Position numbers and translations under genes: made by a program
Shown here: in pieces, positions 3,415-47,962 of the stretch
Position numbering within the stretch: the stretch's first letter is position 1
How the letters are laid out: each line of letters starts with the position of its first letter
From: Pseudomonas neustonica
GTDB lineage: Bacteria > Pseudomonadota > Gammaproteobacteria > Pseudomonadales > Pseudomonadaceae
Length of the DNA: 64,000 nt
Direction of reading: 5' to 3'
Assembly: GCF_003797945.1 (NCBI RefSeq)
Contig: NZ_RKKU01000004.1
Coordinates: forward strand, 124,001-188,000
Notes under the pieces: model-generated
Told to the model about the DNA's origin: nothing
Seen by the model: only the letters and a program-made list of their open reading frames with translations
Database searches by the model: none

Positions 3415-6114
3415 TCAGGGGCCAATGGCAATTGGGCTGCTGTACGCCTGCTCGGTTGGCTGGGTACTGCTCAGGGTGTCGATAATGGTTTGCTGCAGAC
3501 TCTCGCATAGAGCCGGGTCGGATAGTGCTTGATTGTCGGCATCAGTCAGTACGAAAACGTCGTCCACGCGTTCGCCCAAGGTCACGATCTTGGCGTTCTG
3601 CACACTGATGTCAAAGTCGAGCAGAATGCGGCCCATGCGGGCGAGCAGGCCTGGCCGGTCGGGTGCGCTGAGCTCCAGAATCGTGTGTTGGCCGTTCGGA
3701 TCGTTGAAGATCGTCACCTCGGGCGCAAAGGCAAAGTGCTTGAGCTGGCGCGGCACGCGACGCTGGATAATAGTCGGGAAGGCGTCGGGATCAGACAGCG
3801 CTGCAATCAACTCGGCTTTGATCTGGCGGATACGTTCAGGGTTGTCGCCAATAGAATCACCGCCCGAGTCGAGCACGATGTAGGTGTCGAGGCTGAACTG
3901 ACTGGTTGAGGTGATGATGCGTGCATCCTGAATACTCAGGTTGAGCTGATCCATGGCCGATACGGTGGCGGCAAACAGATCGTTCTGCTCAGGCGTGTAA
4001 ATGAAGATCTGGGTCGCACCTTCAAATTCGCGCTGCGCGGTCTCCTTGATGAGCACCAGCGGACCGTGCCGGCTGCTGTGCTGCACTATGGCCTCGGTAT
4101 GCCACGCCACATCGCTGGCGGTATGGCGCAGGAAATAGTCATCACCCAGCTCGGCCCAGAGCGCTTCGGCGTCCTCTTCTTCAATACCGTTGCGCACCAG
4201 AATATCCAGTGCCGCCTGCTGGGTCTGCAGAATGTGCTCGTCGCGATCCGGCGGGTTGTCGAGGCCGCGACGAAGAGCCCGCTTGGTTTCGGTGTAAAGC
4301 TGACGCAGCAGCGACGCGCGCCAGGAGTTCCACAGCGTAGGGTTGGTCGCGTTGATATCGGCAATGGTCAGCACGTAAAGGTAGTCAAGGCGTACTTGAT
4401 TGCCCATACGGACCGCAAAGTCGTGGATCACCAGGGGGTCGGAAATATCCTTGCGTTGCGCTGTCGTTGACATCAGCAAGTGGCTTTCAACCAGCCAACT
4501 GACCAGATGCGTGTCCCAGGCGGGCAAGTGGTGACGGTTACAAAATTGCTCCGCATCGACGGCGCCCAGCTCCGAGTGGTCGCCGCCGCGGCCCTTGGCA
4601 ATGTCGTGATAAAGGCCGGCGATATACAACAGATCCGGCTTGGGCAGGCGACAGAAAATGCGCCAGGCCAGGGGGTATCTATCCTGGTATTCAGGGCGAT
4701 TGAGCTTGCGCAGATGCTTGATCAGGTTGAGCGTGTGTGCGTCGACCGTGTAGATGTGGAAAAGGTCGTGCTGCATCTGACCGACAATCTTGCCGAACTC
4801 GGGTAGATAGCGGCCGAGAATGCCGTAGCGATTCATGCGGCGCAAATTGCGGTGAATGCCTTCCTTGCAGCGAAACAGCTCGATAAACAGGCTGGTATTG
4901 CGAATGTCGGTACGAAAATCATCGTCGATCAAGTGACGATGGTCACGTAGCAGACGGATACTCTCGGCGCGCACGCCCCGAATTTCAGGGTGTTGAGCCA
5001 TAAGCACGAAAATTTCGAGAATGGCGAAAGGGGTGCGCTTGAAGACGTTGGGGTTGGTGACTTCAATGTAGTGGTTACGTATCTGAAAGCGGCTGTTGAG
5101 CGGGCGAATATCGGCGGCTTCGGCGTCACGCAGCAGTATCTCTTCAAAATGCTGCATCAACAGATCGTTCAGTTCTGACAGTGACATCACTACGCGGTAG
5201 TACTTCTGCATGAAGCGCTCTACCGCTAACTTGCTGTCATTGCCTTCGTAGCCGAGCATCTTTGCCAGTGCGCGCTGGTGGTCAAACAGCAGTCTGTCCT
5301 CGGCACGTCCGGACAGGTTGTGCAGGGCGAAGCGGACCTTCCAGAGAAAATCGCGGCCAGCGGTAAGAATGTCGTACTCGGGCTCGTTCAAAAACCCCTG
5401 ATCAACCAGTTTGCGCAGATCGTTGGTGCCAAAGTGACGCAAGGCAACCCAGGCGATGGTCTGGATGTCGCGCAGACCGCCGGGTGAGCTTTTAACGTTG
5501 GGCTCAAGGTTGTACTCGGTGTCGTTAAACTTGGCGTGACGAGCTTGTTGCTCGGCGCGTTTGGCGCGGAAAAACTCGGCGTCATTCCACATGTTCTTGG
5601 TGCTGATCGCAGTCAGCATGCTCTGGCGCAAGACTTCGTCACCAGACAGTGTGCGTGACTCCATCAGGTTGGTAATGACTGTGAGGTCAGCCTTTGCTTC
5701 CTGTTCACACTCCTCAATGGAACGCACGCTCTGGCCCACTTCCAGGCCAATGTCCCACAGCAACATAAGGAAGTTTTCGATCGAAGAGCGGAAGGCTTCG
5801 GGATCGTCGCGCACCAGAATGAGCAGGTCGATATCGGAATGCGGGTGCAGTTCGCCTCGGCCATAGCCGCCAACAGCCAGCAGGGCAATGCCTGGATCCT
5901 GGGCGCAGTCGAGTCTGGCCCATGCCTGCTGCAGTATTTGATCGGTAAACCAGGCGCGCTCGTGGATCAGTTGTCGGATATCGCGCCCGCTCTCAAAGCG
6001 GCCTTGCAGCGCGTTGTCGGCGTGCCTTATGGCTTTTTTGAAAGCGCTGATAGGACTGCTTTTTAATGCCAGCTCCGCTTGGAACTGGCCCGGATCGAAA
6101 AGCGCGTTATCCAT
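3415..6114 (-). CDS. glnD: Bifunctional uridylyltransferase/uridylyl-removing enzyme GlnD
   Basis: The 899-residue sensor of glutamine adds UMP to PII proteins at low glutamine and removes it at high glutamine, so it controls nitrogen assimilation. The nucleotidyltransferase motif [17 protein letters not shown] is at residues 82-98, with D94 and D96 as metal ligands. A central HD domain carries [18 protein letters not shown] for UMP removal. Two ACT domains follow (around [16 protein letters not shown] and [16 protein letters not shown]). Length matches the family. The ATG at 6114 follows AAGGA. It heads the minus-strand dapC/dapD run; map lies 50 bases upstream in the same direction. Confidence 0.97.
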
Positions 6115-7059: not shown

Positions 7060-7238
7060 TAGAGGAACTTTATTCGCCCTGTTATATATGGTATAAAGCG
7101 CGGCGCCTGAACAAACGTCCGGTTTTCCGGAGTCAGGTGAACCTTAAATCCGCACACGTATCGTCACGGTATCCTGGGTGCCCTTCGGGGTTGGATATTG
7201 GGATGCGTGGAGGCCAAACCCAACTTACTGGAGTTATC
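7060..7238 (+). promoter_or_regulatory. rpsB-tsf promoter and S2 leader region
   Basis: A plausible sigma-70 -10 (TATAAA, 7092-7097) is followed by a GCGCGGCGCC discriminator. GC-rich discriminators are typical of stringently controlled ribosomal promoters. About 130 bases of leader then precede rpsB, with small hairpins such as CCGG-TTTT-CCGG and a TGCCCTTCGGGG element. In gammaproteobacteria the rpsB leader is the target of autogenous repression by S2, and by position this is that leader. The exact -35 and the S2-binding fold cannot be fixed by eye. Confidence 0.6.
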
Positions 7239-40377: not shown

Positions 40378-41247
40378 TCAGTGATTCAGACCGCTGATCT
40401 GCGCCTGACTGTCATCCACGCTGTAGCGCCCGCTTTCGCTATCGCGGGCTACTCGCGCCATGGCAACGCGCGGGTCGTGGGTGAATACCAATCGCCCATT
40501 ACGTGATACCAGATTGTCCAGCAAGGCTTCTTTTTCCTCGATCAACGCTTCCGGGAACCGGTCGTAGCCCATGGTGATGGGCAAGTGAACCCAGGGTGCA
40601 CCAGGGATCAGATCGCCGGGGAAGACCACGGGGCCATCGGGCATATCGATGATGGGAATCATCAGCCCTGGTGTGTGGCCATCACTGAACCGGAAACGCC
40701 AGCCTGCGCCCAGAGTGGCAGACGCCTGGCCGTCGTCAATCAGCTCGAGGCGCCCGCTATTTTCCAATAGTGTCAGCAACTCCGGGATGAACGAGGCCTG
40801 ATCGCGCGGATGCGGTCGCTTGGCGCGGTGCCAGTGGCGTTGTCCGGTGATGAAGGTTGCATTGGGGAAAAGCAGCTGCGAAGGCTGGCCTTCCTGCCAG
40901 GCACTAAGTAGTCCGCCAGCGTGATCGAAGTGCAGATGCGTGAGTACCACCACGTCAATATCAGCGTCAGTCAAGCCAGCGGCGGCCAGGCTGTCGAGCA
41001 GTACGTGCCGGTCTTCCACGACGCCGTATCGATCTTTCAGATGCGGTGCGAAAAAGGCGCCGATTCCGGTTTCTACCAGTATGTTGCGATTGTCTTCCTG
41101 AACCAGCAGTGCGCGGCAACTCAGGGCGATACGATTTTTGTCATCGACCTCGACCCAGCGGGACCAGAGGGCCTTGGGAGCGTTGCCGAACATGGCACCG
41201 CCGTCGAGTCGCTGGCTGTTGCCTTCCAGAGTAGAGAGTGTGCGCAT
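40378..41247 (-). CDS. MBL-fold metallo-hydrolase
   Basis: The 289-residue protein has the metallo-beta-lactamase motif [10 protein letters not shown] (HxHxDH, two metals), with further ligands in SDGHTPG and FPGDLIPG and in FTHDPR near the end. No signal peptide is seen, so it is cytosolic. The sequence pattern resembles lactonase/quorum-quenching-type and other small-molecule hydrolases; substrate unknown. The ATG at 41247 follows AGGAG and is preferred over 41274. It lies between the OprD porin gene and the MFS gene in the same direction, so a role in hydrolysing the imported compound is plausible but inferred. Confidence 0.85.
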
Positions 41248-41345
41248 GGGGGCGCTCCTATAACAGAAGGCCATGCGTTGACTCGTTTGTCATGCGCATG
41301 GCAGCAGGTATGTTGTCAGCCCGTTTGCGGGCTGTCCAAGTTATC

Positions 41346-42590
41346 TCAGAGTGAGAAGGTGTAGCCGATAATAAAGCGGTTTTCATCCATGTCGCTGGCG
41401 AAGCTACTGCGGTAGGTCGCGTTGCGCCAGTGCAGGGATAGATTCTCCAATGGTCCGCTTTGTATGGTGTAAGCCAGATCGGTGTTGCGCTCCCATTCAC
41501 TGGCGTTGTCGCTGCCGCTGACGATGTTGATATTGTCGCCGTGGGTGTAGCGGTTCATCAGCTTCAGGCCCGGCAAGCCCAGATCGGCGAAACTGTAGTC
41601 ATGGCGTACTTGCCAGCTGTGCTCACCACGATTGGCAAAGTCGTTGATCTGTACCAGGTGGACCAGAAAGGGGTCGGTGCCCTGCAGGTAAGCGAAGCCG
41701 GTATTGCCATCCATCTGTTGGTAGCTGCTGGCCAGGCGATGCATGCCGGACTGCCAGGAGAGCGCCAGACTGGTCATGCGGTTGTCGACATTGCTGCGTC
41801 CGGCATCACTGCTGTCGGCGTAACGCAGGTTAGCATTCAGGCTGCCGCCACCCAGTGCCCGGCTATGGTTGAGGGTCAGGTAATGTTGGCGGTAGATGGA
41901 ATCTAGCTCGCCGTAGTGATAGCTGGCGCGTGTATCAGGGCTGAAAGCATAAGTGGCGCCAGCAAAGTCAAAGGCGTTGCTCTGCTGTTTGCCGGTCACT
42001 ATGACATTGCGCGCGCCGCCTTGTACGGGCTGCATGCTCTGATAGTCCGACGAATCGCGCAGATTGATGGCATCAAAGCGGCCCAGGTCGAAGCTAAGGG
42101 CATCGTTGCCCTGGGCTTGCAGCCAGCCACCACGGAACGTTTGCGGCAACAGGCGGCTATCGTTATGCATGGCGACGGGCAAGGTGGGTATCAATGTGCC
42201 CAGGCGCAACACGTGTTCATCCAGTCTTAGTTTAGCGGTCAGCCCCAGCTCGCCGTATTCAGACATGGCGCGCCCATCGCTGCGGTCACGCTTGAGCAAG
42301 CCTGTGCCAGTGCGATCAGGGCTGGAGTCCAGTTTGATGCCAAGCAGCCCGATGGCGTCCAGCCCGACGCCGACGCGGCCAGCGGTATAACCTGATTGCC
42401 AGTAGGCACGTACGCCCTGCGCCCACTCATCGGCCTTGCTCTGGGCCGCGCCGGATTGACGAAAGTCACGATTGAAGTAGAAATTACGCAGCTCGATACG
42501 ACTCTCTGCATCCTGCAAAAAGTCGGCATGTGCCGGCAGAATCAATAGACCTGGCAGGGCTGTCAGTAGAGTGGCTTGTAGCAGTTTCAT
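41346..42590 (-). CDS. OprD-family outer membrane porin
   Basis: The 414-residue precursor has a signal peptide ending PAHA before DFLQDAESR. The start of the mature chain (RIELRNFYFNRDFR) is the OprD family signature, and the chain ends in a beta-strand, FIIGYTFSL. OprD porins are substrate-specific channels for amino acids or carboxylates (OccD/OccK types) in pseudomonads. I take the ATG at 42590, because AAGAG lies at proper distance; an ATG at 42599 is also possible. The permease gene ends 19 bases upstream, suggesting that both serve the same substrate. An A-rich motif at 42603-42610 precedes it. Confidence 0.9.
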   Translation of the reverse strand: MKLLQATLLTALPGLLILPAHADFLQDAESRIELRNFYFNRDFRQSGAAQSKADEWAQGVRAYWQSGYTAGRVGVGLDAIGLLGIKLDSSPDRTGTGLLKRDRSDGRAMSEYGELGLTAKLRLDEHVLRLGTLIPTLPVAMHNDSRLLPQTFRGGWLQAQGNDALSFDLGRFDAINLRDSSDYQSMQPVQGGARNVIVTGKQQSNAFDFAGATYAFSPDTRASYHYGELDSIYRQHYLTLNHSRALGGGSLNANLRYADSSDAGRSNVDNRMTSLALSWQSGMHRLASSYQQMDGNTGFAYLQGTDPFLVHLVQINDFANRGEHSWQVRHDYSFADLGLPGLKLMNRYTHGDNINIVSGSDNASEWERNTDLAYTIQSGPLENLSLHWRNATYRSSFASDMDENRFIIGYTFSL

Positions 42591-42602
42591 AGTGTTCATC
42601 TC

Positions 42603-42610
42603 TTGTTTTT
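42603..42610 (-). promoter_or_regulatory. AANAANAA (CA-type) motif before the OprD gene
   Basis: On the minus strand the bases read AAAAACAA, an exact AANAANAA match, immediately before the Shine-Dalgarno sequence of the porin gene. In Pseudomonas, Hfq with Crc binds such catabolite activity motifs in translation start regions and blocks expression when preferred carbon is present. Assignment rests on sequence and position only. Confidence 0.45.
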
Positions 42611-42618
42611 ATAGTTGA

Positions 42619-43995
42619 TCAGTCAGGGGTGTCGGCGTTTTTGCTCGGCATGTCCTTGACGCTGCGAAAGCGCAGGATGTGGGTGCGTTCGACCAGGATG
42701 TACAGCACGGCACCTGCTGCCAGCCCCCAGCCGGCGCCATACACGGCCAGGACGACGCCCATGGTGCCGGCAACGCCGCGCTCGGTATTGTTGTTGAGTT
42801 GCTCAAAGCCGACCATCAGGCAGATATAACCGGTCAGGACCAGAGTCAGCGACAGAGCAATGGGCAGCACAGGTTGAAAGAAGCTGACCAGCGGCAGCAT
42901 GAACAACGCAAGGAAACCGGTGATCCAGAAGGTGCCTGCGCCGCTATAGATCGAGTCCATTGCCTTGCGGCCGTACTTGTAGCGCTCAGCCATGGTGGCG
43001 GCGACTGCGGTCCAGATTGGGCCGGCCAGCCCTGGATAGGGGGCGAAGAAGGCATGCAGCGCATTACGCAACGCCGTCACCAGATGCGCTCGATCGATGT
43101 TGTTCTCGATGACTTCGTCTGGGCGCAGTTCGTCTGCGCGCTGCATCAGTGACTGACCCACGATAATGTCACCGAAGGCAATTATGTAGGCAATAACCGC
43201 CGTTGGTGCCGCCAAGAGGAAAACCTTGGCGTCCGGGAAGCCAACATTGAATGGCAGGTAATTCCACATCTCGGCAAAGGCCGGCATGGTAATGCCCCAG
43301 CGCACATTCGGTACCTGATACTCGCCTACCGCAATGCCGACGATAATGGCGATCAACATGCCTGGCACCATGCCGTAGTTGACGATCTTGCGCATGAATG
43401 GGACGCGCTCGGTCAGCCCTTTGAAGGATACCGAGAACATCAGATACAGGCAGATCAAGGTGCCCAGGATCAAGGATATTGGTGTGTTGGCCAGGCGGCC
43501 GCCGGTCGATATTTCGCCCATCAGAGCGGCGATGCCGGCACCGATAACAATGCCGCCCTTCATCGAGTTGGGCACGATGCGCACCATCACGCTACCGAGC
43601 CGGGTGATACCCAGTATCAGAAAGATCAGAAAGACCGTGAACTGCAGTGCGAACAGCGCCTGAATAGCCTCTGGTCCCGGTGCGAAATCACCAAGAAACA
43701 GCAGCACAACAGGAATCGCCGGGGTGATCCAGCCCGGTACCATAGGCACCCCAAGCAGGGCCGGCAGCATGAAACCGATGCCGCAGACTACGACGTAGGC
43801 CAGCGCGACGTCGTAGGGCAGTCCGAGAAATTTTTCCAGTAGCGGGATCATGCCCAGGCTGACCACAAACATGATCAGCGCCTGCAGCATTTCTGCGGTT
43901 TCCCAGCGATAGTGGACGAATGGCAAACGGATCTTGAACGGGCCACAGGGCCAGAAAGGTTGCTCTGCGCCGTCGGCGCGCTTGAAAATAGACAT
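42619..43995 (-). CDS. Inner-membrane permease, xanthine/uracil-permease-like
   Basis: The 458-residue protein has about eleven to thirteen hydrophobic segments with short loops. The layout and the amphipathic segment after VVCGIGFMLPALLGVPMVPG resemble NCS2/SulP-fold (UraA-like) permeases; from memory it may belong to a DUF3360-type group, unverified. Start: ATG at 43995 behind GGAGCC; the extension up to 44097 is basic and not family-like. It lies between the acyl-CoA ligase and the porin, so uptake of the ligase's carboxylate is the natural reading. The leader holds an 8-bp hairpin and an AANAANAANAA motif. Confidence 0.78.
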   Translation of the reverse strand: MSIFKRADGAEQPFWPCGPFKIRLPFVHYRWETAEMLQALIMFVVSLGMIPLLEKFLGLPYDVALAYVVVCGIGFMLPALLGVPMVPGWITPAIPVVLLFLGDFAPGPEAIQALFALQFTVFLIFLILGITRLGSVMVRIVPNSMKGGIVIGAGIAALMGEISTGGRLANTPISLILGTLICLYLMFSVSFKGLTERVPFMRKIVNYGMVPGMLIAIIVGIAVGEYQVPNVRWGITMPAFAEMWNYLPFNVGFPDAKVFLLAAPTAVIAYIIAFGDIIVGQSLMQRADELRPDEVIENNIDRAHLVTALRNALHAFFAPYPGLAGPIWTAVAATMAERYKYGRKAMDSIYSGAGTFWITGFLALFMLPLVSFFQPVLPIALSLTLVLTGYICLMVGFEQLNNNTERGVAGTMGVVLAVYGAGWGLAAGAVLYILVERTHILRFRSVKDMPSKNADTPD

Positions 43996-44007
43996 GAAAG
44001 GCTCCGT

Positions 44008-44028
44008 CAGCCGGGCAATACCCGGCTG
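44008..44028 (-). promoter_or_regulatory. Perfect 8-bp hairpin in the permease leader
   Basis: CAGCCGGG and CCCGGCTG pair perfectly around a five-base loop. The hairpin ends a few bases before the permease Shine-Dalgarno sequence. There is no T run on either strand, so it is not a standard terminator. It sits between the A-rich motif (44030-44040) and the ribosome site and could act in mRNA processing or stability at the ligase-permease boundary. Confidence 0.5.
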
Positions 44029-44029
44029 C

Positions 44030-44040
44030 TTATTGTTGTT
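44030..44040 (-). promoter_or_regulatory. AANAANAANAA (CA-type) motif before the permease gene
   Basis: The minus strand reads AACAACAATAA, an exact four-unit AAN repeat and longer than the AANAANAA consensus of Hfq/Crc targets in Pseudomonas. It lies 35 bases upstream of the start codon, separated from it by a hairpin. Such motifs on catabolic transporter mRNAs mediate catabolite repression in the genus; the assignment here is inferred. Confidence 0.5.
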
Positions 44041-44074
44041 GTGAAACGGTTTTGTGGTGGTGCGGTGCTGTCGT

Positions 44075-45694
44075 CTAGAGCGCCTTGGCCCAGTCACGCA
44101 GCACGTACTTCTGGATCTTGCCGGTTGAGGTTTTCGGCAATTCGGTAAAGATCACGGTTTTGGGTGCTTTGAAGGCTGCCAGGTGCTCGCGGCAGAAGTT
44201 GATGATGTCCTCGTGTGAGATGTCGTGGCCGCGCTTGCGGGTTATGAAGGCGCAGGGTGTTTCTCCCCACTTTTCATCCGGACGGGCGACGACGGCCGCT
44301 TCCAGCACGGCAGGGTGTTTGTAGAGCGTATCCTCCACTTCGATGGTTGAGATGTTTTCGCCGCCGGAAATGATGATGTCCTTGAGACGGTCCTTGATCT
44401 GCACATAGCCGTTGGGGTGACAAACGGCCAGGTCGCCAGTGTGGAACCAGCCGCCCTCAAAGGCTTCTGCCGTGGCTTCCGGGTTTTTCAGGTAGCCTTT
44501 CATGACAGTGTTGCCGCGCATGAAGATCTCGCCGATGCTCTTACCGTCACGTGGCACTGGCTGCATTGTTTCCGGGTCACCTACCATCACGCCTTCCAGT
44601 GTTGGATAACGCACACCCTGATGGGACTTAAGGTCAGCACGCTCGTCCAGCGACAGGGCGTCCCACTCGCTGTGCCAGGCGCAGACTGTGACCGGGCCAT
44701 AGACTTCGGTCAGGCCATAGGTATGGGTGATTTGGATACCCATGTCTTCAACCGCACCTATGACCTTGGCCGGTGGAGCTGCGCCGGCGACCATTGCCTT
44801 GACTGGATGATCGATGGCGGCCTTGGCCGAGTCGGGCATGTTGGCCAGCGCATTCAGCACAATCGGGGCGCCACACAGGTGAGTGACCTGATGCTCATGG
44901 ATCAGGTTGAGAATCTTCTGTGGGTCGACCCGGCGCAGGAATACATGCACACCGGCCATGGCTGTGATGGTCCAGGGGTAGCACCAGCCGTTGCAGTGGA
45001 ACATCGGCAGCGTCCACAGATAGACGGGGTGCAGGCCCATGGCCCATGTCATCTGATTGCCGATGGCATTCAAATAGGCGCCCCGGTGGTGGTAAACCAC
45101 ACCCTTGGGGTTGCCGGTGGTGCCTGAGGTGTAATTCAGCGATATCGCATGCCATTCATCCGTCGGCCAGTGCCAGTCGTATTCGGGGTCGCCTTCGGCG
45201 AGAAAGGTCTCGTAGTCTAGCTCGCTGACCGGCTGGCCCTCACCGTATTCGGGATCGTCAACGTCGATGACCAGAATGGGCCGCTTGATCAGATCCAACG
45301 CCTTGCTGATGACCTCGTGAAACTCACGGTCGGTAATCAGCACCCGCGCTTCGCCGTGATTCAGCATGAAGGCGATGGCCTCGGCATCCAGACGTACGTT
45401 CAGGGTATTGAGTACCGCGCCAATCATGGGCACGCCAAAGTGAGCTTCAAGCATCGCCGGGATGTTTGGCAGCATCACAGCAACCGTATCGCCACTGCGA
45501 ATACCGCGCTCGTGCAGCGCTGAGGCAAGGCGTCGGCAGCGTTGATAGGTTTCCTGCCAGTCGCGGCGTATGGCGCCGTGGACGACCGCCGGGTAGTGTG
45601 GATAGACATGGGCCGTGCGCTCAATGAACGACAGCGGGGACAGGGCAATATGGTTCACGGGGGCCGGTGCGAGGCCTTCCTGGAAGATGCTCAT
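44075..45694 (-). CDS. AMP-forming acyl-CoA synthetase (medium-chain/AlkK-DmdB type)
   Basis: The 539-residue adenylate-forming ligase activates a carboxylate to its CoA ester. The P-loop-like YTSGTTGNPKGV is at residues 188-199, HTYGLTEVYGP is the A5 motif, and GWFHTGDLA and KDIIISGGENIS are the hinge region. The catalytic Lys is in KTSTGKIQKY near the C-terminus. The pattern fits the medium-chain/AlkK and DmdB (methylmercaptopropionate) branch, and the exact acid is unknown. It is the first gene of the minus-strand island, divergent from the PAS kinase. Its AAGAAGG ribosome site overlaps an A-rich motif. Confidence 0.88.
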   Translation of the reverse strand: MSIFQEGLAPAPVNHIALSPLSFIERTAHVYPHYPAVVHGAIRRDWQETYQRCRRLASALHERGIRSGDTVAVMLPNIPAMLEAHFGVPMIGAVLNTLNVRLDAEAIAFMLNHGEARVLITDREFHEVISKALDLIKRPILVIDVDDPEYGEGQPVSELDYETFLAEGDPEYDWHWPTDEWHAISLNYTSGTTGNPKGVVYHHRGAYLNAIGNQMTWAMGLHPVYLWTLPMFHCNGWCYPWTITAMAGVHVFLRRVDPQKILNLIHEHQVTHLCGAPIVLNALANMPDSAKAAIDHPVKAMVAGAAPPAKVIGAVEDMGIQITHTYGLTEVYGPVTVCAWHSEWDALSLDERADLKSHQGVRYPTLEGVMVGDPETMQPVPRDGKSIGEIFMRGNTVMKGYLKNPEATAEAFEGGWFHTGDLAVCHPNGYVQIKDRLKDIIISGGENISTIEVEDTLYKHPAVLEAAVVARPDEKWGETPCAFITRKRGHDISHEDIINFCREHLAAFKAPKTVIFTELPKTSTGKIQKYVLRDWAKAL

Positions 45695-45703
45695 GGCAAA
45701 ACC

Positions 45704-45714
45704 TTCTTGTAGTT
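45704..45714 (-). promoter_or_regulatory. Near-match to an AAN-repeat motif over the ligase ribosome site
   Basis: The minus strand reads AACTACAAGAA, which fits AANAANAANAA with one mismatch. It overlaps the ribosome-binding site AAGAAGG of the acyl-CoA ligase. It is listed because the two following genes carry exact motifs; alone it would be weak evidence. Confidence 0.3.
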
Positions 45715-45757
45715 GTCGGCTGTGCGCGGTGATGTACGATGCGCATGCGGTTCTTGA

Positions 45758-45842
45758 GATACCCAGTTTGGTGCGGTACGGGTATCCTGCTAGAGGTATT
45801 TATATACCAGTCAGAGTTAATATGGAATATACCCTAAGGTAT
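45758..45842. promoter_or_regulatory. Three ATACC/GGTAT inverted repeats in the divergent control region
   Basis: Three palindromes share one half-site: GATACCC-N15-GGGTATC (45758-45786), GGTAT-TTAT-ATACC (45795-45808) and ATACC-CTAA-GGTAT (45829-45842). Centres are about 30 and 34 bases apart, roughly three helical turns. They occupy the 175-base gap between the ligase and the kinase genes. The likely binder is the FixJ/NarL-type regulator encoded at 47327, whose family uses short inverted repeats; this is inference. Confidence 0.65.
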
Positions 45843-45869
45843 TATGGTGTAATTACTATATGGTGATGC

Positions 45870-47300
45870 ATGGCTGAATCCCTACCCTCGTTGCGTGGTC
45901 TGCTGCAGGCGGACCCATTGCCGATGATGCTGGTCGCGGCGCAGGGCTTGCCGCTGTTTCGTAACGCGGCGCTGAGCCGGTTGGCTGACGACGCCAGCGG
46001 CCTGGATGCCTGGCTGCCACCGAATCATCTGTCGCTGGTTAACTCGGCGCTGCAACAGCGGCGAGCCATCGAAGATGTGCATACCTGCTGCGGGGAGCGC
46101 CATTTGTTGTGGAGTTATATTCCGCTGGTCGAGACCGAACAGGTCTGGGTGCGTGGCCGGGATGCAACGCAGTGGCTGCAGCATCAGGAGCAGGCGACTG
46201 TAGCGCGCCGTCTGTATCATTTGATTATTGAAAACACCACAGACCTGATCTCTCGGCATCGTCCGGACGGTCGCTTCATTGATGCTTCTCCGGCCTCCTG
46301 GACCTTGCTGGGGGTCTGGCCTGAGCAACTGCGCGGGCAGTTGCTTGATAGCCTCTTTCATCCGCAGGAGCGCGAGCAGTTGATCGCTCGTTTTCGTAAT
46401 GCCCTGGAACAGGATGGCTATCTCACCTATACCTATCGCATCCGCCATCGTGATGGCCACTACCTGTGGTTCGAGACCGCCAGCCGGGCGATTCGTGAAA
46501 CCTACACCGGTGAAGTAGTCGAGGTCGTGAGCGTATCGCGAGACATCACCGAGCGGCTGCAAAGTGAAGAGCAGAACCGCCGACTGCAGGATGAACTGGC
46601 GCATGCTGCGCGCCTGGCGACGCTGGGCGAGTTGGCTTCAGGTATTGCCCACGAGATCAATCAGCCGCTGGCAGCCGTACTCAACTATGCGGGCGCCAGT
46701 CAGCGCTATTTGGCGCAACTTGAGAGTGACACACCAGAGGCGATCAAGATTGGCCAGGGCCTGGAACGCATTCAGCAGCACGCAGAACACGCCGCAGCGG
46801 TGATCCGGCGTTTGCGTGATTTTTTGCGTAAGGGGCAGCGACGTTTACAGCAGGTTAACGCCGGTCAGTTGGCCGCTCAGGCCGTTGGCTTGTGCGCTTG
46901 GGAGGCGGGGCAGTATCAGGTGCGTATCATTGAACAGATAGCCGATGAACTGCCGGACCTCAACGTCGACCCGATTCTGCTGCAGCAGGTCTTGTTGAAC
47001 CTGCTACGCAACGCTATTGATGCCAATCGAGAGAGTCATGGGGAGCGTGGCTCAGAGGTCCTTTTGCGTATCTCGTTGCATGGGCAGCAGGTTTGTATCG
47101 AAGTGATTGATCAGGGGCCCGGTGTCTCTGCCGAGGCCCGCGAGCGCTTATTTGTGCCTTTCTACACCAGTAAGGAAGATGGCTTGGGCTTGGGGCTATC
47201 AATGAGTCAGGGTATCGTAGAGGGCTTTGGCGGCAGTCTGGAAGCCTTGCCTGCCGATACCGGCGGCCTCTGCCTGCAGTGCCTGCTTCCCGCCGGATAA
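45870..47300 (+). CDS. Soluble PAS-domain sensor histidine kinase
   Basis: The 476-residue protein has a PAS-like N-terminal region (about 1-105), a PAS/PAC domain (about 115-230, with YRIRHRDGHYLWFETASRAI), then HisKA with the phospho-accepting His261 in LASGIAHEINQPLAAV. The HATPase region has the N box LLNLLRNAIDAN and glycine motifs IDQGPGVS and GLGLGLSMSQGI. No signal peptide or TM segment is seen, so it senses something inside the cell, perhaps the CoA ester or redox state. It resembles FixL/DctB-type kinases. The regulator gene follows after 26 bases. Confidence 0.9.
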   Translation: MAESLPSLRGLLQADPLPMMLVAAQGLPLFRNAALSRLADDASGLDAWLPPNHLSLVNSALQQRRAIEDVHTCCGERHLLWSYIPLVETEQVWVRGRDATQWLQHQEQATVARRLYHLIIENTTDLISRHRPDGRFIDASPASWTLLGVWPEQLRGQLLDSLFHPQEREQLIARFRNALEQDGYLTYTYRIRHRDGHYLWFETASRAIRETYTGEVVEVVSVSRDITERLQSEEQNRRLQDELAHAARLATLGELASGIAHEINQPLAAVLNYAGASQRYLAQLESDTPEAIKIGQGLERIQQHAEHAAAVIRRLRDFLRKGQRRLQQVNAGQLAAQAVGLCAWEAGQYQVRIIEQIADELPDLNVDPILLQQVLLNLLRNAIDANRESHGERGSEVLLRISLHGQQVCIEVIDQGPGVSAEARERLFVPFYTSKEDGLGLGLSMSQGIVEGFGGSLEALPADTGGLCLQCLLPAG

Positions 47301-47326: not shown

Positions 47327-47962
47327 ATGTCTGAGTACGCGCAACAACGGGTTTACGTCGTCGACGATGATCAGGGCATGCTGGACTCTACGGTCTGGCT
47401 GTTCGAGTCGATCGGTTTGCAGGCGCAGCCTTTTACCAGCGGTCAGGCGTTTCTGGATGCCTGCGACGCTGCCGCGCCAGCCTGTGTGCTGCTTGATGTG
47501 CGCATGCCGGGCATGGGGGGGTTGGCGGTACAGGAAGCCATGCGTGAACGGGGTATTGAACTGCCGGTGATTTTCGTTAGCGCCCATGCCGACGTCCCTA
47601 TCGTGGTACGCGCTTTTCGGGGTGGTGCGGTGGACTTCATCGAGAAGCCCTACAACGAGCAATTGCTGCTCGATAGTGTGCAGCGAGCGCTCAGTCAGCG
47701 GCGGGTTTTTATTCATCCGCAGATACCTGCAGTACAGGCTCGCTTTGAGTCGCTGACGCCGCGCGAGAGCGATATCCTGCTACCGCTGGTTCAGGGCTTC
47801 AACAATCGAGAAATAGCCGAGCAGTTGGGTATCAGTGTGAAAACAGTGGATCTCTATCGCTCCCGCGTGATGAAGCGCATGCAGGCGGACAGTTTGCCGG
47901 CGTTGGTCGGCATGGTGATTGGATTAGGGTTAATTGATCCCTTCACGCAGCGCCTGATTTAG
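47327..47962 (+). CDS. Response regulator, FixJ/NarL family
   Basis: The 211-residue regulator has a receiver domain with acidic pocket (VVDDDQ), phospho-acceptor Asp57 in CVLLDVRMPGMGG, and Lys107 in DFIEKPYN. The LuxR-type HTH covers about 144-200 (LTPRESDILLPLVQG, NNREIAEQLGISVKTVDLYR). It is paired with the PAS kinase directly upstream. By position it should control the divergent acyl-CoA ligase island through the ATACC/GGTAT repeats. A terminator shared with the tRNA follows at 48056-48094. Confidence 0.92.
   Translation: MSEYAQQRVYVVDDDQGMLDSTVWLFESIGLQAQPFTSGQAFLDACDAAAPACVLLDVRMPGMGGLAVQEAMRERGIELPVIFVSAHADVPIVVRAFRGGAVDFIEKPYNEQLLLDSVQRALSQRRVFIHPQIPAVQARFESLTPRESDILLPLVQGFNNREIAEQLGISVKTVDLYRSRVMKRMQADSLPALVGMVIGLGLIDPFTQRLI

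Follow-up and report, generated by a model that had tools for sequence, protein, structure and literature searches.

A conserved A-rich site and stem-loop before the permease cistron of a Pseudomonas ligase-permease operon, a predicted target of Hfq and Crc

Do A-rich stretches standing before three successive genes mark a whole pathway for catabolite control, or does only part of the run carry a function? The question is raised by a 64,000-nucleotide (nt) stretch of contig NZ_RKKU01000004.1 of Pseudomonas neustonica (hereafter the window), in which genes for an acyl-CoA synthetase (the ligase), a permease and an OprD-family porin follow one another. A preliminary description had noted motifs resembling Hfq/Crc targets in all three leaders and suggested that the pathway is used only when preferred carbon is absent. 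Such targets are frequently identified by an A-rich word close to a start codon, an approach that can go wrong (PMC12533007; this and the other papers are cited for those parts of their text that were accessible). Here, evolution sorts the three candidates: a single one has been preserved across genera, along with a hairpin. The predicted permease site is conserved across genera, the putative porin site is local and plausible, and the ligase site is to be dropped. We consider it rather probable that the ligase-permease intercistronic region is a selected RNA element composed of an A-rich Hfq site, a stem-loop and the Shine-Dalgarno sequence.

Read from the window, A-rich stretches are present in all three leaders, with the sequences claimed. 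The permease site AACAACAATAA contains the exact AANAANAANAA, as described, and begins 45 nt ahead of its start codon (ATG, 43995); this distance is linear, and proximity to the ribosome site needs the stem to be formed. The porin site AAAAACAA, an exact AANAANAA, begins 11 nt upstream of an ATG at 42599. As several porin homologs align from residue 3 or 4 only, the start is probably 42590; the site would then lie about 20 nt upstream, just before AAGAG. The ligase stretch AACTACAAGAA has one mismatch to the 11-mer, and no exact AANAANAA was found in the ligase leader of the window. The background was read from 858,325 bases of the host genome, window included, in which a custom gene caller provided 709 usable gene starts. 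The exact 8-mer begins within positions -50..-1 of 27 genes (3.8%) and within -80..-1 of 33; the exact 11-mer occurs in -50..-1 of 12 genes (1.7%), the 11-mer with at most one mismatch before 36, and the 8-mer on the opposite strand before 14. A loose rule accepting the exact 8-mer or the 11-mer with one mismatch in -50..0 holds for 5.5% of genes. None of 340 same-strand gene triples follows it throughout, with 0.06 expected under independence; the window's own triple is left out of this count because the gene caller put the porin start at 42545. The run of three sites is uncommon, but partly dependent on the loose ligase match.

Leader counts across species are based on the best 80 of 200 loci with the permease found in a search of species genomes, among which the ligase is present in 79 and the kinase and regulator of the cluster in 77. 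With one locus left out for a cut permease (L054), 79 permease leaders were counted; a locus with a partial porin (L055) was left out of the porin count. An exact AANAANAA lies at most 82 nt from the start in 73 of the 79 permease leaders, compared with 33 of 709 genes in the background, and the site precedes the start by 35 to 78 bases in linear distance. The leaders devoid of an exact motif are L010, which has one mismatch, L064 and four Vibrionaceae/Zobellella carriers (L040, L046, L056 and L057). Among porin leaders, 7 of 12 have the exact motif at most 30 nt from the start, and conservation of this putative site is confined to near relatives.

Ligase leaders carry the exact motif at most 75 nt from the start in 23 of 79 cases: all 17 of a Marinobacter/Bacterioplanes group (L064-L081 except L080), which differs in this from the Halopseudomonas group and has the motif near a fixed place about 30 nt before the ligase start, plus six scattered others. 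The ten loci closest to the window all lack it. The idea of three equal sites in a row was rejected, the ligase being without the exact motif here and in L002-L009, L011 and L013. A further leader of the cluster, that of the metallo-beta-lactamase-fold gene, has the exact AANAANAA at most 50 nt from the start in 22 of 52 loci (L010, L014, L015 and others), mostly in the Pseudomonas oleovorans/mendocina group and in none of the window's near relatives.

When 56 distinct permease leaders are aligned at the site, identity is 28-33% in the flanks beyond 10 nt and 49% in the 10 nt preceding the site. Columns left free by the motif pattern are nevertheless kept: the sixth base is C in 53 of 56 leaders and a preceding CAC is retained in 47-51. 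Its conservation places the permease site beyond chance. One could object that these are functionless A-rich words kept by chance and shared descent, since the run of three depends on the loose ligase match and the leaders are related, so that counts are not independent. For the permease leader this is barely credible, as the flanks have drifted to near-random identity while the site stays, and stem positions change in pairs. For the ligase stretch, the explanation by chance and shared descent stands.

The preliminary description overlooked the stem-loop and the Shine-Dalgarno sequence located 3' of the permease site. In the window, the 24-nt stem segment folds at -17.8 kcal/mol (p 0.002-0.004 against shuffles), and folding in context predicts the site to be 0.92 unpaired and the stem to form with a pair probability of 0.98. 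The fold test across species omitted the leaders without an exact motif (L010, L040, L046, L056, L057 and L064); the 74 remaining leaders, window included, reduce to 56 distinct segments, which are related and thus not 56 independent tests. Some stem-loop is predicted between site and Shine-Dalgarno sequence in all 56, and in 37 it surpasses the controls of both shuffling procedures used at p<0.05 (mean z -2.4). The gap from site to Shine-Dalgarno sequence extends from 16 to 55 nt, the unpaired linkers combined amounting to 1 to 13 nt. In context folding, the predicted stem reaches 0.5 in 43 of the 56 leaders, and 50 have a site that is unpaired to 0.7 or more. Two Stutzerimonas loci, L061 and L080, are among the carriers of the predicted element.

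The letters and the length of the stem vary between species and pairing is largely kept. Relative to the window's stem, five double changes preserve a pair (in L002, L007 and L011), and single changes in L003-L006 and L013 break one to three of the nine pairs. A model of the element (R1) was built from 27 chosen leaders, and an alignment fitted to this model (A3), which therefore leans towards it, shows changes on both sides in 26 cells, compared with 13.9 for shuffled alignments (0 of 500 as high). Of five measures on A3, two do not stand out clearly from shuffles (43 and 394 of 500), and shifting the structure by one column gives a score of 0.141 against 0.184. With the structure named on the plain MAFFT alignment (A1), 20 cells are changed on both sides compared with 11.2 after shuffling (0 of 500 as high), and further pair types are not above shuffles (415 of 500 as high).

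Several other identities were considered for the stem and rejected. It is not an intrinsic terminator, being followed by ACGGAG without a U run. A repetitive extragenic palindrome is refuted by the single strong place that R1 finds in the host genome (52.9 bits, the next 21.9) and by the variation of its letters between species. A DNA operator is equally unsuitable, given that the stem letters differ between species and some double changes keep pairs. Nor is the layout a common feature: among 308 host-genome leaders in which the gap measures 50 nt or more and a Shine-Dalgarno sequence is present, a 24-nt segment at or below -11.4 kcal/mol precedes this sequence in three, and the value of -17.8 is attained in the permease leader only. 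An Rfam scan of the window returned no family for the element over the gathering score, only t44 and a tRNA.

The main rival explanation, which we regard as unlikely, is that of a processing or stability element: RNase E would cut the open stretch and the stem-loop would protect the 5' end of the permease messenger RNA (mRNA) or the 3' end of the ligase mRNA, the A-rich stretch acting as an open landing place with or without Hfq. Stems without a U run between cistrons do mark differential decay in Escherichia coli operons, and the protective stem-loops of papBA and malEF are intercistronic in the same way (PMC5927463). The permease leader is unlike them in having an exact A-rich repeat beside the stem and a stem that abuts the Shine-Dalgarno sequence, at such strength alone among the 308 leaders; and the conserved exact AAN repeat with C in the free positions is left unexplained by processing alone. 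In other Pseudomonas, the motif is found in 0 of 40 leaders of the next gene of the operon, and those viewed have a GC-rich inverted repeat, that is, a hairpin without an A-rich site, as the processing explanation would have it. Hairpins in this operon can therefore serve other uses.

The host genome encodes CrcZ (over cut-off), Hfq and a protein, P0001, which we take to be Crc-like from its sequence and its pyrE-like neighbour. On balance, we favour a repression of permease cistron translation by Hfq, probably together with Crc, exerted through the A-rich site and hairpin. The distal face of Hfq would bind the AAN repeats and Crc, where present, would stabilise the complex on the leader. The stem-loop would close the gap and place the A-rich site next to the Shine-Dalgarno sequence; because the stem brings it there, an Hfq complex on the site would hinder the 30S subunit, and less permease would be translated while preferred carbon is present. 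Titration of Hfq by CrcZ would then relieve repression. The conservation of the arrangement in many Pseudomonas-like bacteria points to a permease kept in reserve for as long as better carbon is available. We infer Hfq binding, repression, its direction and its action on the permease cistron alone from sequence.

The steps proposed here are those of a known system: AAN/ARN repeats are bound by the distal face of Hfq, the complex is made more stable by Crc, and Hfq is titrated by CrcZ (PMC8266614, PMC12533007, PMC7264166). In Pseudomonas stutzeri, AANAANAA is enriched in Hfq-bound 5' leaders (PMC11332353). The permease leader is predicted to be a member of this target class, which includes amiE, estA, rbsB, zwf and gcd. 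It shares with them an AAN/ARN repeat in the translation start region of a gene for catabolism or uptake, and a host possessing Hfq, a Crc-like protein and CrcZ. The Hfq/Crc assemblies on amiE, estA and rbsB are also shaped by ARN stretches and hairpins, some of them held on the proximal face (PMC9890229). Unlike these targets, the permease site, here predicted from sequence, is intercistronic, 45 nt upstream, with a conserved stem before the Shine-Dalgarno sequence; in amiE, the repeat overlaps the latter (PMC8266614). The element joins an A-rich repeat and a hairpin, both known from Hfq/Crc assemblies, in one compact conserved form. For the porin, a parallel is offered by opdP, a Pseudomonas aeruginosa OprD-family porin gene repressed by Hfq/Crc with A-rich triplets in its start region (PMC7264166); the window porin is likened to it at the level of the OprD family only, and its putative site is conserved in near relatives only. 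On the sequence evidence, the earlier assignment of catabolite-type Hfq sites is well supported for the permease, in view of its conserved leader and of the Hfq, CrcZ and Crc-like protein of the host, is plausible for the porin in the light of its 7 leaders out of 12 and of OpdP, and finds no support for the ligase in this lineage. To deduce control of the whole pathway from three sites in a row was an overreach: the conserved site concerns the transport step, where catabolite control of this uptake-and-activation cluster would be placed.

Does the element follow its presumed partners across hosts? For Crc and CrcZ, 48 of the 80 loci were given and 47 genomes searched, L057 being left out. Crc is found with at least 44% identity in 42 of the 47 (one a partial match at a contig end), and a CrcZ match in 41, over the cut-off in 25. 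The exact motif is present in 40 of the 42 Crc carriers (not in L010 and L064) as against 2 of the 5 carriers without Crc. Those lacking both Crc and motif belong to Photobacterium, Zobellella and Vibrionaceae; those lacking Crc with the motif present are an Alcanivorax and a Marinobacter metagenome assembly. In the latter, Crc may be missing from the assembly, because a CrcZ-like match, below cut-off, is present. Among the four motif-less carriers L040, L046, L056 and L057, Crc was not found in the three searched. In the tree of ligase and permease, all four fall within Pseudomonadaceae beside the window's group, and the 15-row set holding the Vibrionaceae/Zobellella rows has 98% support (a quick tree without bootstrap). 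The permease occurs in 1 of 75 genomes of the family of Zobellella and in 16 of 296 Vibrionaceae. It looks as though the ligase-permease cluster was transferred between orders into Crc-less hosts and the site then lost; Zobellella still has a predicted hairpin at the ribosome site. In Vibrionaceae, 1 of 7 loci of the near type (two of them counted before) keeps AACAACAA, a more distant type has the 8-mer in 4 of 9 loci at scattered places, and Crc above 30% identity is found in none of the 16.

The permease is also present in 21 of 293 genomes from the order of Alcanivorax; near permeases (two counted before) have the motif in 7 of 8 cases, two of them without Crc (G029 and G495). In its accessible part, PMC9788540 describes Alcanivorax as having no Crc homolog. 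Hfq is present in all 10 Crc-less carriers checked. A clean match of the element with the presence of Crc was rejected (G029, G495 and G263). Two Crc-less genomes with the whole predicted element, one of them Alcanivorax, speak against a strict need of Crc, and the putative element tracks Hfq and descent no less than Crc.

Ribosomes can benefit from CAA-rich leaders, and the site might accordingly be a translation enhancer, an open CAA-rich stretch used as a standby or S1 site reachable across the stem, with no part for Hfq. The predicted openness of the site (at least 0.7) in 50 of 56 leaders and its retention in the two Crc-less genomes would suit such a function. We nevertheless hold it to be quite improbable: the site was lost in the Crc-less Vibrionaceae and Zobellella carriers although ribosomes are present there, and the exact AAN phase is kept.

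Repression by Hfq through the site and hairpin also has to be weighed against a number of contrary results. As to structure, 19 of the 56 stems are no better than shuffles, and two double changes (L002 and L011) break a pair of the window's stem. RNAalifold applied to the plain alignment A1 returns 0 pairs, stems of different length looking out of register there. The Shine-Dalgarno sequence is itself mostly paired in the predictions, with a median of 0.31 unpaired and 0.27 in the window. As to distribution, the loss of the motif in Vibrionaceae and Zobellella concerns one clade and is one event at most. L137 is Crc-less and retains AACAACAA; Alcanivorax (L063 and G029) and G495, with no Crc match at E 1e-10, retain motif and stem; and the 13 distant homologs among the 21 in the order of Alcanivorax (62-67% identity), 12 of them with Crc, have the motif in only 5 cases. 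In the literature, the hairpin of estA counters repression, its removal having strengthened it (PMC9890229), and a 2025 study of Pseudomonas putida found many motif-bearing genes unresponsive to CrcY/CrcZ overexpression (PMC12533007).

Beyond this operon, R1 was searched in the host genome, in the window plus the 80 loci, in 36 chosen sources and in a set of 58 relatives' genomes. At E<=0.001, it matches 19 of the 58, corresponding to 19 of 37 genomes of the same genus, host included, and 0 of 21 others. Among the matched loci that were read, six start the permease and two (L191 and L192) an aldehyde dehydrogenase, whose best NCBIfam match is MdlD, below cut-off; the gene of L190 was not assigned. 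Before the aldehyde dehydrogenase, an A-rich site, a hairpin and a Shine-Dalgarno sequence are seen at 1501-1549 in L191 and 1501-1548 in L192. A like layout precedes the heme o synthase gene of the host genome (L111, around 5880-5917). Many other motif sites of the genome sample are placed at around -20 to -30 and have no strong hairpin beside them. A literature search whose coverage excluded most subscription journals found no description of such an element before this permease gene. It is possible, though somewhat doubtful, that site, hairpin and Shine-Dalgarno sequence recur as a class of Hfq riboregulator of their own. In such a class the hairpin would be functional, either through being held on the proximal face of Hfq or by bringing the site onto the ribosome site; Hfq alone could suffice where Crc is missing; and one cistron of an operon would receive its own catabolite control. 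The role of hairpins in Hfq/Crc assemblies has been termed puzzling (PMC9890229). With its natural variants in hairpin length and its Crc-less carriers, the permease leader makes this role directly testable.

The features of the locus are assembled in Table 1. The host genome amounts to 4.33 Mb in 77 contigs, and the loci closest to the window by their ligase-permease pair are those of Pseudomonas sp. WN033 (90% identity) and Halopseudomonas. From these nearest loci, we infer a Halopseudomonas-like source for the window.

Table 1. Features of the ligase-permease locus, in positions of the window
Feature	Position	Strand	Remark
Metallo-beta-lactamase-fold protein	40378-41250	-	
OprD-family porin	41346..42599	-	start more likely 42590
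A-rich site AAAAACAA before porin	42603..42610	-	exact AANAANAA
Permease	42619..43995	-	weak Pfam Xan_ur_permease match; no NCBIfam match
Shine-Dalgarno GGAG of permease	44002..44005	-	two bases 3' of stem; read from sequence
Stem-loop	44008..44028	-	9 pairs, loop of 3; between A-rich site and Shine-Dalgarno
A-rich site AACAACAATAA before permease	44030..44040	-	exact AANAANAANAA; predicted Hfq distal-face site
Acyl-CoA synthetase (ligase)	44075..45694	-	NCBIfam PRK08162 over cut-off; cistron upstream of permease
A-rich stretch AACTACAAGAA before ligase	45704..45714	-	one mismatch to 11-mer; not counted as site
PAS histidine kinase	45870-47300	+	divergent from ligase operon
FixJ-like response regulator	47327-47962	+	divergent from ligase operon

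The third place of the operon is held by the porin gene in near Halopseudomonas (41346-42599 in the window) and by another gene in many other Pseudomonas (L015, 7435-9207), which is presumably acyl-CoA dehydrogenase-like; the L015 gene has no NCBIfam match at 1e-60. In the kinase-ligase intergenic region (45695-45869), a TATAAAT-like box comes after an inverted repeat (TATAGTA...TACTATA type); together they are likely to be the operon promoter and the operator used by the FixJ-like regulator. Similar repeats are visible in several of 12 orthologous kinase-ligase intergenic regions. Elsewhere in the window, the t44 RNA family match (7133-7219, + strand, 74 bits) is an ordinary one.

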